Assembly (NCBI GenBank): GCA_030537255.1
Contig: JAUNOE010000001.1
Span: 75,397-124,095, forward strand
Direction: 5' to 3'
Source of the DNA: Coriobacteriia bacterium
Lineage (GTDB): Bacteria; Actinomycetota; Coriobacteriia; Coriobacteriales; Eggerthellaceae
Length of the DNA stretch: 48,699 bases
In this document: piece by piece, positions 16,647 to 23,662 of the stretch
Position numbering within the stretch: the first letter of the stretch is position 1
Layout: every line of letters begins with the position of its first letter
Notes under the pieces: generated by a model
What the model was told of the DNA's origin: nothing
Databases searched by the model: none
Seen by the model: the letters and a program-made list of their open reading frames with translations, nothing else
Translations under genes and position numbers: made by a program

Positions 16647-17369
16647 CTATTCTTCAGAATTCTTTCGATTCTTGACGAAAGTAGCCGCCATAGCTTGCTC
16701 GAAGGCCCGCCTTAGGCGACCATCCTCTATGGATCCCGTCAGTTCGTCAATGCGTTCACGCTCAGCGATGGGCAGTGTTTCACGTGAAACAGCCATCGAT
16801 GAGGTCGACCGACCAAGAGCCGCGCCCCCCTGACGCTCCAGGTAGGGATGAACCTTACGGTACTTGCCCTTGGAAAGACGAACTTCGAAGTCAACGAGCT
16901 CGATAAGGTGCTCCTCAAGATAGCGAAGCCGAAGAAGCTCGCGCTGCGCATCCAATTCAGCAGCAACCAGTGAATTGTCTACATAGACAATGAGATTGCG
17001 CTTCTTCGCCAGGCGAGTCTTGGCTCGGGGGTTGTAGATGCCGCTCTCGTCGAGCTCCGACTTTGGCACAGAGTAATCTTTGTCGGAAACTCTATTGGCT
17101 TCGACGCCCGAGGAAGCCTTGGCACCTACAGCGTCCGACCGAGTGAGCCCCTTGGAATCGGAGCCCTTGACCGGCAACAGGTACACCGCATTGACATGCT
17201 CAAGCACGAAGGACGAGGTAACCGTAGCGAATTGATCGAGGATCCGCTCGACGGCGCGCTCCTTTGCCAGCTTCTCCCGTTCCTCTCCCGGCAGGGAAGA
17301 GGCCCATTCGGAAAAGTAGATCGAAAAAGAAGAAAGACGAAAGCGCTTAGAACGTACCACGATGCTCAC
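16647..17369 (-). CDS. DUF721 protein (DciA-like helicase-loading candidate)
   Basis: DUF721 proteins between recF and gyrB are the actinobacterial form of DciA, a DnaB-interacting protein in bacteria that lack DnaC/DnaI. This 240-residue protein is larger than the usual domain. Residues around 40-150 match the expected layout (EKLAKERAVERILDQFATVTSSFVLEHV, then NLIVYVDNSLVAAELDAQRELLRLRYLEEHL, a strand-helix pattern). The C-terminal part contains VSRETLPI, encoded by a parS site. The start is GTG, overlapping the recF stop by four bases (GTGA), which implies translational coupling. Function is inferred from family and position. Confidence 0.75.
   Translation of the reverse strand: MSIVVRSKRFRLSSFSIYFSEWASSLPGEEREKLAKERAVERILDQFATVTSSFVLEHVNAVYLLPVKGSDSKGLTRSDAVGAKASSGVEANRVSDKDYSVPKSELDESGIYNPRAKTRLAKKRNLIVYVDNSLVAAELDAQRELLRLRYLEEHLIELVDFEVRLSKGKYRKVHPYLERQGGAALGRSTSSMAVSRETLPIAERERIDELTGSIEDGRLRRAFEQAMAATFVKNRKNSEE
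16776..16791. other. parS site 2 (perfect), inside the DUF721 gene
   Basis: TGTTTCACGTGAAACA, a full match to the parS consensus. In the reading frame it encodes VSRET near residues 193-197 of the DUF721 protein. Confidence 0.93.
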
Positions 17370-20015: not shown

Positions 20016-21665
20016 CTATTCGACGCGAAGCTTTTCCCGGATTGCTTCCACTTCTTCCCTCAGATTCCTGTCTTCATTGATCTGTTCGGATATGACCTCA
20101 TACGAATGCATGATGGTGCTGTGGGCACGTCCGAAGCCGTCCCCGATTGCCGCAAAGGTACAGTCGAGCATCTCACGACATAGGTAGATGGCGACACTGC
20201 GGGGGAGCTTGATCTTCTTGCTTCGGCCGGGCCCCGTGAGCTCCTTGTCGCTTACTCCGTAGAAGGAACAGATGGCGTCTTTGATGGCGTCCATGGTTAC
20301 CTTGTTCGAGGTGTCGCTGGCAAAGTGGTTCGAAAGCATCTGCTTTACTTGCTGCTTTGTCACCTTGTGCTCCGGGTCAAGCTTCAGGGCAAACACGACG
20401 TTGGTGACCGCGCTTTTGAGCTCACGGACGTTCGAGCTGGAGTTTTCGGCAATGTAGTCAAGGACGTCATCGGTCAGCTCAAGGGGGAAGTCTTCGTCTT
20501 CCTGGCATTCCATGAGGAAGCTCTTGGCGATATTTCGCTTTGTTTCGGCGTCGGGCGGATGCACATCGATGGTGGCACCCGAGTTGAATCGCGACACGTA
20601 ACGTTCGTCCAGGTCGATGTTCTTAGGCGCGCGGTCCGCGCTGAATACGAACTGCTTTCCCTTGGGGATGAGTTCGTTGAAGATGCGGAACAGGGTGTCA
20701 AGCGTCTGCTGTTTTCCCTGCAGGGCCTGGATGTCGTCAATGAGCAGTACGTCCAACTCCCGGAAGGATTCCTCAAAGCTGCGGAAGCTCTTGGTGATGG
20801 CCGCGTTGCTGTATTCGTTGACCATCTCCATTGCGTCGATGTAGCGAACCTTCAGCGTGGGGTAGTGCTCTTCCAGGTAGTTGCGGATGGCGCAGAGCAG
20901 GTGTGTCTTGCCCACTCCACTCCTACCGTAGATAAACAGCGGGTTGAGTGCGGAGTTTCCGGGCTTGTCGGCTACTTCCACGGCCATGGAGTAGGCCATT
21001 TGGTTCGAGGCTCCTGCAACGAAGTTGCCGAAGGTGAGCTTGGTTTCCCCTGTTGTGGTCCGCCTTGGCTGAAGCGGCTCCGCTGGCTTCTCTTTGGGTT
21101 CGGTCTCCTCCGCCGTAGACTCATCTTTTGCCGGCTGCTCGTATTCCGAGGGTTTCACCTGAGACCGGGACGGGCTCTTTCCGGCCGTTGCCTCTTTGTT
21201 TTTGGGGGGTGCTGTCGGCTTTTGATCCTCCTTCTGCTCTGGCTTGTCCATTGCTGGAGCGTCGTCTTGCGGCAGTGGCTGGGGGGCCGCTTCGATGGGA
21301 TTCTCCTTCGTTTCCGACAGCTTCGGCGCCCCTTCCTTAGCCGCGTCGCTTTTCTTCGGGGACTCTGCCACTGCGGGTGTGCTTGTTGCTTCGGAAGCTT
21401 CTGAGGCCTGGGTTGTGTCAACCTCAATCTGGATGATCCAGTTGTCTCCTCCGTAGAGCTCGCTCATGGCTTGACGGATGTCGTCGGTGTAGTGGTCTTC
21501 GATCCAATTCTTGATGAAGGCGTTATCTGAGGTCAGCATGGCGAACCCGCCTGCCGCCGCCTGGATTTGCACGCGCGAAAAGAAGGCGTCGATCTGGGGT
21601 GCGCTGTTGGAATGGTAGGTTTTCAGCTGGGCGATGAGTTTCGCTCGGGCTTCTTCGAGATCCAC
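20016..21665 (-). CDS. dnaA: Chromosomal replication initiator protein DnaA
   Basis: DnaA binds oriC and melts it. The 549-residue protein has domain I (residues 1-80, QIDAFFSRVQIQ, FIKNWIEDHYTDDI), an unusually long Glu/Lys/Pro-rich domain II (about 85-205), the AAA+ domain with LTFGNFVAG, Walker A GRSGVGKTHL (247-256), Walker B VLLIDDIQAL, a sensor with SRFNSGATIDV, and domain IV from about 453. Domain IV ends with a signature reading FGRAHSTIMHS (511-521), where actinobacterial DnaA usually has FGRDHTTVxxA; the Asp and one Thr that contact the box are Ala and Ser here. The start is GTG at 21665 with GGAG upstream. It follows the GHKL gene by 20 bases. Confidence 0.97.
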   Translation of the reverse strand: MDLEEARAKLIAQLKTYHSNSAPQIDAFFSRVQIQAAAGGFAMLTSDNAFIKNWIEDHYTDDIRQAMSELYGGDNWIIQIEVDTTQASEASEATSTPAVAESPKKSDAAKEGAPKLSETKENPIEAAPQPLPQDDAPAMDKPEQKEDQKPTAPPKNKEATAGKSPSRSQVKPSEYEQPAKDESTAEETEPKEKPAEPLQPRRTTTGETKLTFGNFVAGASNQMAYSMAVEVADKPGNSALNPLFIYGRSGVGKTHLLCAIRNYLEEHYPTLKVRYIDAMEMVNEYSNAAITKSFRSFEESFRELDVLLIDDIQALQGKQQTLDTLFRIFNELIPKGKQFVFSADRAPKNIDLDERYVSRFNSGATIDVHPPDAETKRNIAKSFLMECQEDEDFPLELTDDVLDYIAENSSSNVRELKSAVTNVVFALKLDPEHKVTKQQVKQMLSNHFASDTSNKVTMDAIKDAICSFYGVSDKELTGPGRSKKIKLPRSVAIYLCREMLDCTFAAIGDGFGRAHSTIMHSYEVISEQINEDRNLREEVEAIREKLRVE

Positions 21666-21685: not shown

Positions 21686-23017
21686 TTATGCTTGACGTGC
21701 GGCCTCAAGGCCTTGCTGGGTAAGGTGGCGCTCCTTGCCGATTTCCTCGACCAGACCTGCCTGGGTGAGTCTTTCGAACGAGTTGTGGACGGAGGACACC
21801 GAAATACCTGTTTCACGTGAAACAGCGGTGACTCCAGCAGGCCCTGCCTCCAAGGCCTTTAGGATGATTCGATCATTGCTGGTTATCTTTATGCCACTTG
21901 CGGTTTTTTGTTTACTGCTTGATGGTAACGGTGCGCCTGGCGTTGCGGGGTGTTCCATAAGGCTGATAGTTACCACAGCGCCCGAATTGATGTTGTCTTC
22001 GATCGTGATGCTGCCATGGTTGAAGCTCAGGGCGTCTTTTACCAAGGGGAGACCGGAGCCGACGCCTCGAATGTATTGCTTCATAGGCTCGGTGGCGCTG
22101 GTTACGCCAGGCATCTGCACAAGGGACTTGTCTTTGATGCCGGGACCCTGGTCTGTGAATCGGATGGTGTTTCCCGCATCGAGGATCGAGACCACGACTT
22201 CCTTGAACTGCGCATGGATGAAGTTTTCGGATACTTCTCGGATCACCGAATAAGGTATGCGGCCTCCCGTCGCCTGCGAATGTTGGTAGGTCAGGGATGC
22301 GATTCGCTCGATGAATTCGTGCGTCGGGCCTCCGGGTATACGGATGACGCGTGGTGCGCTGTGAAGGTCGTCGTAAATGGCGACTCGAGCTGAGGTATCG
22401 ATGTTCGAGTAGTCGAAGTCGTCGGCAGGCTTTGTTGGTGATGTCCGCGCTGGTGCAGGCGTGGGTACCGATGCAGGTGCTGCACCTTCGGGAGTAAAGC
22501 CGGGCGTCCAGCCTTGCTGCTGGGGTTGGATGACGCCCCCTTGCGGTTGTTGCATTGGTTGGATGGGGGCCTGAGGGTGGCCAGGGACCTGCGGGTAGCC
22601 GAAGGCCTGTGGGTAGCTAGGCCAGGATCCTGGTGTGGGCTGTTGGGCTTGCGGATAGCTGGGGGTTGCAGGGAAGGCTTGCTGCTGAGGGGGCATGTCC
22701 TGACCTTGGGGGTAGCCATACCCCGGCCAAGCCTGGGTGGGGTGGTAGCTGGGTTGCCGCATGTCCCAAGCCTGCTGACCCGACCAGGCTTGGCCGGCGT
22801 GGGGTGGGTTGCCGTCTGTCGCGGCCCGTCCTGGCTGCGGTTGCCCCGTGGTCTGTTCGGGGATGGCCCTGCCTCCGTTTATGGTCATTGCTCCGTTTGC
22901 CTGATCCCAGTCGGGCGCTGCCTCTTCGACCGTCGAGCCACCCATGGATAGGTTTCCCCTGGGTGGTAGCGCTTGGTCTTCTGGTGTCGTTTCGGCATTG
23001 TTGGGTGCTTGGTCCAT
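21686..23017 (-). CDS. GHKL ATPase with Pro/Gln-rich N-terminus and C-terminal winged helix
   Basis: Residues 1-200 are low complexity, rich in Pro, Gln, Gly and Tyr, with repeated YPQA/YPQ-like units around 92-150, and are probably disordered. Residues about 230-355 form a histidine-kinase/anti-sigma-type ATPase domain: N box REVSENFIHA (260-269), G1 FTDQGPGI (287-294), G2 GVGSGLPLVK (318-327). There is no phospho-accepting His domain and no membrane segment. Residues 378-440 form a winged helix (NDRIILKALE, VSSVHNSFERLTQAGLVEE) whose helix-turn-helix includes VSRET, encoded by a parS site. It lies 20 bases upstream of dnaA on the same strand. A role in origin or dnaA control is inference from position. 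The ATG at 23017 has a weak Shine-Dalgarno. Confidence 0.85.
   Translation of the reverse strand: MDQAPNNAETTPEDQALPPRGNLSMGGSTVEEAAPDWDQANGAMTINGGRAIPEQTTGQPQPGRAATDGNPPHAGQAWSGQQAWDMRQPSYHPTQAWPGYGYPQGQDMPPQQQAFPATPSYPQAQQPTPGSWPSYPQAFGYPQVPGHPQAPIQPMQQPQGGVIQPQQQGWTPGFTPEGAAPASVPTPAPARTSPTKPADDFDYSNIDTSARVAIYDDLHSAPRVIRIPGGPTHEFIERIASLTYQHSQATGGRIPYSVIREVSENFIHAQFKEVVVSILDAGNTIRFTDQGPGIKDKSLVQMPGVTSATEPMKQYIRGVGSGLPLVKDALSFNHGSITIEDNINSGAVVTISLMEHPATPGAPLPSSSKQKTASGIKITSNDRIILKALEAGPAGVTAVSRETGISVSSVHNSFERLTQAGLVEEIGKERHLTQQGLEAARQA
21809..21824. other. parS site 3 (perfect), inside the GHKL gene
   Basis: TGTTTCACGTGAAACA. It encodes the VSRET stretch (residues 399-403) at the start of the winged-helix recognition region, so here the parS-encoded peptide is part of a folded domain. 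Confidence 0.93.
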
Positions 23018-23099: not shown

Positions 23100-23340
23100 C
23101 CGTCAAATTTCAGGGTTTTCGTCGAAATTCGGCCTATGTTTTGTCGAAAACCGAAAGAAACGTCGAAAACTCTGTCGTTTTCGCTCAAGATTCTATCGAG
23201 CTTTTAGTCAATTTTCAATTTTTCGACAGAGTTTTCGAGTTTTCGACATTTGAGTTCTCTACAACTTTCGATATTTCGACTGAGTTTTCGACAGAATGTA
23301 GAAAAGTCGAAAGAAATATCGAAAAACAAGGAGCACGGTC
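23100..23340. other. Probable oriC: cluster of variant DnaA boxes TTTTCGACA
   Basis: The gap sits at the strand switch between the dnaA and rpmH gene blocks. Perfect copies of TTTTCGACA lie at 23220-23228, 23240-23248 and 23285-23293 (plus) and 23142-23150 (minus). Near copies lie at 23161-23169 (minus, TTTTCGACG), 23273-23281, 23305-23313 and 23317-23325. In all, 12 TCGA cores lie in about 210 bases. The element differs from TTATCCACA at two positions; no canonical box is seen. AT-rich patches such as AGTCAATTTTCAATTTTTC (23207-23225) could melt. The call rests on position and repeat density; the dnaA-dnaN gap could also take part. Confidence 0.7.
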
Positions 23341-23512: not shown

Positions 23513-23647
23513 ATGAAACGCACTTATCAACCCAACAACCGCAGGCGTGCAAAGACTCATGGTTTCCGTGCTCGTATGGCAACCAAGGGTGGCCGCGCCG
23601 TCCTGTCCGCCCGTCGTGCTAAGGGCCGCAAGCGCCTTTGCGTCTAA
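23513..23647 (+). CDS. rpmH: 50S ribosomal protein L34
   Basis: This 44-residue basic protein begins [19 protein letters not shown] and ends [10 protein letters not shown], the L34 pattern; the last residues are normally RLTV or RLSA, so the Cys is a small variation. It has AAAGGA upstream and is followed 15 bases later by rnpA, its standard neighbour. Confidence 0.97.
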
Positions 23648-23662
23648 GACAGATGAGGAATC

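Follow-up and report, generated by a model that had tools for sequence, protein, structure and literature searches.

A gene for a GHKL-ATPase/winged-helix protein beside dnaA in Actinomycetota, a candidate regulator of replication initiation

What is the function of a gene that lies between a replication origin and dnaA, and whose product joins an ATPase of the GHKL type to a DNA-binding fold? The question is raised by a locus in a stretch of 48,699 nucleotides (the window) from a Coriobacteriia bacterium of the Eggerthellaceae, whose genome is a 1.57-Mb draft, 82% complete. A first-pass annotation of this DNA suggested a regulator of the origin or of dnaA that perhaps senses the ATP level, and both the regulation and the ATP sensing are what we too infer. 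A search of the literature outside subscription journals and preprints found no paper on the gene.

The gene and its product

The open reading frame list and translation place the gene exactly where the first-pass annotation had it, 20 bp from dnaA, and add the strand, which is minus. The gene encodes 443 amino acids from an ATG start. Downstream, dnaA is followed by dnaN and recF, and rpmH, rnpA, yidC and later parA/parB run in the opposite direction from 23514:

21686..23017, minus strand: gene for the GHKL-ATPase/winged-helix protein, first gene of the apparent dnaA operon (open reading frame, translation, profile, synteny)
20016..21665, minus strand: dnaA, its recognition motif for the DnaA box changed to GRAHST (TIGR00362 over cut-off; motif)
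23514..23648, plus strand: rpmH, divergent neighbour that marks the other side of the origin region (homology, synteny)

An open reading frame at 16647-17369, after recF, occupies the position where a DUF721/DciA-type gene usually lies but has no Pfam match.

The product consists of an arm and two domains:

22406..23017, minus strand: Pro/Gln-rich arm, presumably disordered and lineage-specific, residues 1-204 (composition; absent from most homologues)
21950..22405, minus strand: GHKL ATPase domain with its N-terminal strand-helix segment, residues 205-356 (Pfam HATPase_c; model; structural matches)
22211..22237, minus strand: N-box E261-VSE-N265-FI-H268-A269, invariant or near-invariant in 109 homologues (alignment)
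22136..22153, minus strand: G1 box D289-Q-G-P-G-I294 (alignment)
22046..22069, minus strand: G2 box R317-G-V-G-S-G-L-P324, histidine-kinase-like (alignment)
21689..21892, minus strand: winged helix-turn-helix with a conserved wing (R430), residues 376-443 (Pfam HTH of IclR/ArsR/TrmB/MarR type; MarR-like fold)

The arm, the ATPase and the winged helix had all been recognised in the first-pass annotation, and composition, Pfam and the intact N, G1 and G2 boxes bear this out. Rich in Pro, Gln, Ala and Gly, the arm has 34% P+Q in residues 1-200 vs 10% in the remainder. Most homologues carry only 12-50 residues ahead of the ATPase, a long arm being found in few lineages; judged from the alignments, the arm is a peculiarity of the window's lineage, and the GHKL domain and winged helix are the conserved parts. 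HATPase_c matches residues 256-353 (E 3e-8, over the gathering score), PF02518 is matched by 31/31 family members, and an IclR/ArsR-type winged helix is matched at residues 384-430 by PF09339 and PF01022, both over their gathering scores.

The importance that had been attached to the ATPase and DNA-binding parts is supported by motifs that are invariant across several families of the phylum. Among 109 aligned homologues E261 is present in 108 and N265 and H268 in all; the N-box has the general form E261-x-x-E/D-N265-x-x-H268-A269, the G1 box is D-x-G-P-G-I and the G2 box R-G-V-G-S-G-L-P, with D289xGPG and G318xGxG invariant. The winged helix likewise keeps a consensus across classes (L-S-x-R-Q ... 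G-P-S-x-I-A ... S-T-A-Y-R-D-L-x-x-L-E-x-x-G-L ... G-K-R-x-L-T), and the N-box E-x3-N, H268, G1, G2 and winged helix are kept even at 23-30% identity. The linker between the domains varies from a few residues to more than 200 (Collinsella). From motifs and fold, the GHKL domain is expected to bind ATP, and dimerisation and DNA binding are probable, although the winged helix of the window protein has no net positive charge (8 K/R, 8 D/E). The Glu four residues ahead of the N-box Asn lies where GHL ATPases and SpoIIAB have their catalytic Glu; hydrolysis or phosphotransfer is thus possible.

The predicted structure is confident (pLDDT 86 for the model and 89 for GHKL alone). As the first-pass annotation held, a phospho-acceptor domain is missing: Pfam gives no HisKA match, and the models have no helical hairpin ahead of the N-box helix, merely a short strand-helix segment. 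The catalytic domains of sensor histidine kinases (CpxA, HK853) share the HATPase_c fold and the G2 box, and the NCBIfam matches are mostly to histidine kinases. The protein could on these grounds be the relic of an orphan sensor kinase, but this is already contradicted by domain content, there being no DHp domain and no conserved phospho-acceptor His outside the N-box; the operon contains no response regulator, and the strong conservation is incompatible with decay. A relic is scarcely credible.

Hardly more probable is an ATP-driven clamp or origin architecture factor of the GHL kind, which would dimerise on ATP as do MutL and gyrase and act directly on origin DNA. Such a protein would account for the GHL-type N-box (E-x-x-E-N-x-x-H-A), for a match to a MutL model at residues 255-299 and for the near-invariance of Glu261, but the G2 box and lid are histidine-kinase-like and no clamp partner is present. 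Moreover, the GHKL domain leads directly into the linker and winged helix, whereas MutL, GyrB, Hsp90 and TopoVI-B have a transducer (S5-like) domain.

Structural comparison of the GHKL model gives DIP2311 of Corynebacterium diphtheriae (PDB 3lmm) as the best match to the core (Z 14.3, 154 residues, rmsd 3.1), followed by SpoIIAB with nucleotide (Z 11.2), histidine kinases and mitochondrial dehydrogenase kinases; known families low in or absent from these lists are not counted as excluded. The winged-helix model is MarR-like, matching MarR-type structures with Z 11-13.6 over 65-73 residues. We take DIP2311 to be a putative regulator of AlbA_2/GHKL/winged-helix type, COG2865-like. Foldseek aligns it over most of the two-domain model, but identity is only 14%, DIP2311 is longer, with an extra domain ahead of GHKL that has no counterpart here, and it has no known link to dnaA. 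The AlbA_2 and HATPase_c_4 models are neither among the Pfam matches of the window protein nor among the 25 most frequent over the 31 family members.

SpoIIAB with ADP/ATP, the best functionally characterised of the structural matches (127 residues), raises the possibility of a partner switch, in which the GHKL domain, as in SpoIIAB or NifL, would bind a protein partner, possibly DnaA, or phosphorylate it on Ser/Thr, the winged helix serving mainly for protein contact or for positioning on DNA. The SpoIIAB/RsbW anti-sigma factors and serine kinases share the GHKL fold and both the N-box Asn and the Glu four residues before it, which are conserved here, and the weak NCBIfam matches include models for anti-sigma F and NifL. 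They are, however, single GHKL domains encoded beside a sigma factor and a STAS antagonist, whereas here a winged helix is added and kept across families, and the neighbours in the window are dnaA/dnaN/recF and rpmH/rnpA/yidC, with no sigma-factor or antagonist gene adjoining. The N-x-x-H-A spacing of the N-box also resembles that of GHL proteins. A partner switch is an unlikely, if respectable, explanation. No NCBIfam model is over its cut-off for the window protein, the 31 members give only scattered kinase-type and HTH matches, and curated regulator families give no match over cut-off; the family thus appears to be without a name in NCBI's curated set.

Linkage to dnaA and distribution in the phylum

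That the association with dnaA exceeds chance is evident from its constancy. The loci read in detail were the matches listed first together with a hand-picked spread of families, and in 109/118 distinct homologues dnaA lies within 1 kb of the gene. The remaining nine genes are within 600 bp of the end of a contig or record, and seven of them belong to closed or single-contig records that have dnaA at their start. Wherever there is enough sequence dnaA is the neighbour, from Eggerthellaceae to lineages at 23-35% identity, and no counterexample was found. The outcome by which the first-pass annotation would have been refuted, homologues lying mostly away from dnaA, is not what the loci show. The gene and dnaA share a strand in 126/129 loci. 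Their spacing has a median of 58 bp in Coriobacteriia and 11.5 bp elsewhere; gaps of 2-50 bp and several 4-bp (ATGA-type) overlaps indicate that the pair forms an operon.

The protein might instead regulate other genes and be carried with dnaA through a conserved early-replicating position or a common promoter, with no role in initiation. Order near the origin is generally conserved, rpmH, rnpA, yidC, dnaA, dnaN and recF keeping their places, which favors passive carriage. Yet inversion of the gene-dnaA block against dnaN and rpmH, seen in a dozen loci from Eggerthellaceae, has left the pair together (L034, L039, L040, L041, L047, L055, L057, L058, L061, L062, L066, L068), and no copy away from dnaA occurs in any genome searched: the gene has been lost, not moved. 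We consider passive carriage improbable. Local inversions at the origin are recurrent, with dnaA alone inverted in L060 and L063 and the gene alone in L009. In Rubrobacter-like loci (L083, L086, L087, L122, L123, L124), 14-18 TTATCCACAG boxes lie in the dnaA-dnaN interval; the gene is still ahead of dnaA, and its bond is thus with dnaA and not with the main box cluster. Co-evolution specific to DnaA is not visible beyond vertical inheritance, since by simple distances the GHKL domain correlates with YidC (r 0.71) as highly as with DnaA (0.68).

Relatives with the same protein were retrieved from Slackia, Adlercreutzia, Paraeggerthella, Raoultibacter and Collinsella. Within the Coriobacteriia, sampled without regard to dnaA linkage and with many genomes in draft, 222/246 genomes carry the gene in single copy at E 0.001, a few of the weakest of these being kinase matches only. 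A profile (A2) of 31 diverse family members, run on 396 genomes across Actinomycetota, gave two-peaked scores; 157 genomes reach E 1e-16 or better, the majority lying at 1e-50 to 1e-106, and the gene is again single-copy. Carriers include many other families of the phylum and a complete record of 3,225,748 bases (G284). None of 118 genomes of the Actinomycetes-type class, delimited by way of a 9-Mb member assumed to be Streptomyces-like, has the gene, and an orthologue there was ruled out: the matches are histidine-kinase ATPases of at most 55 bits that lack the winged helix, vs 200-350 bits for orthologues. Mobile copies were not found in 72,556 plasmids, 50,697 phages or IMG/VR.

Twenty-six Coriobacteriia genomes lack the gene. 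In 17 of these dnaA is absent as well, which implies that the locus is missing from the assembly. Nine have dnaA, in one case at a contig start, and at least eight have a continuous rpmH/rnpA/yidC-dnaA region. In the eight with an intact region there is neither a remnant at the locus nor a copy elsewhere in the genome; draft-assembly error cannot account for them all. Because they span four families, the gene has been lost several times, and these losses, with its absence from the 118 Actinomycetes-type genomes, show that it is not generally essential.

DnaA boxes ahead of the gene

Between rpmH and the gene lie two further features:

23143..23292, no strand assigned: five clustered TTTTCGAC repeats, interpreted as DnaA boxes whose specificity has changed (repeat counts, relatives)
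23190..23218, minus strand: sigma-70-like promoter TTGAAA-17-TAGAAT for the gene and dnaA, within the box cluster (consensus match only)

The concentration of five of the window's seven TTTTCGAC copies in this interval supports the placement of the gene between origin and dnaA, and 4 of the 19 copies of TTTTCGACA in the 1.57-Mb genome fall inside the same 150 bp. The first-pass annotation had suggested that the protein binds these repeats at 23.1-23.3 kb, a suggestion now weakened. Relatives hold the ordinary variants TTTTCCAC or TTTTCAAC at homologous positions, and the recognition motif of DnaA has changed in parallel, being GRAHST in the window, NRSHST in the nearest relative (L031) and NRDHST or GGRDHTT in other relatives; similar arrays are present in genomes without the gene. 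The most satisfactory interpretation of the repeats (TTTTCGAC) is as DnaA boxes whose sequence has changed and matches the altered motif, and a shift in DnaA specificity would explain them without a new protein. The change from TTTTCCAC to TTTTCGAC, accompanied by the disappearance of Asp from the recognition motif of DnaA in the window and L031, has the appearance of a natural switch of initiator specificity. DnaA with GGRHHST (Asp to His) in L092-L095, L111, L112 and L121 suggests a second, independent change.

Inverted DnaA boxes exactly 24 bp apart are upstream in 50/114 loci, and shuffled sequences gave at most 1. Outside Coriobacteriia a third box lies between the pair (TTTTCCACA-N2-TGTGGAAAG-N3-TGTGGATAACT), and a matrix made from this triad found it in 44/64 further loci. 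The conserved palindrome might be taken for the protein's own operator. This reading was rejected, for the same triad (TTTCCACA-N2-TGTGGA..-N3-TGTGGA) is upstream of dnaA in the gene-less genomes of L207, L214, L215, L218, L221 and L224; it most likely belongs to DnaA. The triad score is low in 6/8 loss loci, which leaves a slight chance that the triad has a part in both the DnaA and the gene systems. No binding site of the protein's own was found. With its N2 and N3 spacers, the triad ahead of the dnaA operon is phylum-wide and present in most loci that carry the gene, apparently an ancestral element of DnaA control or of the origin; the gene thus has this old DnaA-box element on one side and dnaA on the other. 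For Streptomyces and mycobacteria it is established that dnaA is autoregulated via its promoter (PMC8203912).

A proposed role in replication initiation

Domain content, intact motifs, single copy, the unbroken link to dnaA and operon-like spacing are directly established. Since the gene leads the operon and is inseparable from dnaA, and since the protein has an intact nucleotide site and a conserved DNA-binding fold, the most economical reading is a DNA-binding regulator, switched by nucleotide, that acts on dnaA expression or on the origin and whose gene heads a dnaA operon under DnaA-box control; from sequence comparison we give this reading an even chance. As the first cistron of the operon, downstream of the old DnaA-box array, the gene would supply a protein whose GHKL domain binds ATP and may hydrolyse it by means of the conserved catalytic-type Glu261. 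Dimerisation, or the way in which the C-terminal winged helix is oriented, would change with the nucleotide bound, and dnaA expression or the action of DnaA at the adjacent origin would then be set by the protein according to ATP/ADP state. The target, the dnaA promoter/origin or DnaA itself, is proposed only.

We know of no origin or dnaA regulator, among them SeqA, Fis, IciA, AdpA, MtrA, HP1021 and CtrA, with a GHKL and winged-helix layout. These proteins exert DNA-binding control of dnaA or oriC (PMC4285127), the role proposed here, but differ from the present family, whose gene is fixed beside dnaA. A precedent for the nucleotide switch is NifL, whose GHKL domain acts as an adenine-nucleotide sensor rather than a kinase, binding ADP and tuning the inhibition of NifA (PMC9866876); in the window protein such sensing is only proposed, and NifL differs in having PAS and H domains, no winged helix and another partner.

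A wider proposal, to which we lean somewhat less than evenly, is that the protein, probably ancestral to Actinomycetota, regulates replication initiation by tying dnaA expression or origin firing to adenylate state, and that Actinomycetes have lost it. If so, the loss occurred in the class behind nearly all work on actinobacterial replication. The dimer interface of DnaA domain I is conserved in class Actinomycetes and not in the other classes (PMC13270200), a distribution opposite to that of the gene, which is a lead only. Many Actinomycetota are without recognised DnaA regulators; for mycobacteria, one paper (PMC5720831) says as much. When a gene is single-copy and its link to dnaA is complete in several families, comparative genomics can hardly point more strongly to a new initiation factor, and gut Coriobacteriia that can be cultured, as well as Rubrobacter, offer a direct test. 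Should the protein read ATP/ADP, there would be two nucleotide switches, DnaA being the other. Because its link to dnaA is never broken, this conserved, unnamed gene, present in several deep branches of Actinomycetota, is a strong candidate for a hitherto unknown controller of the start of replication.
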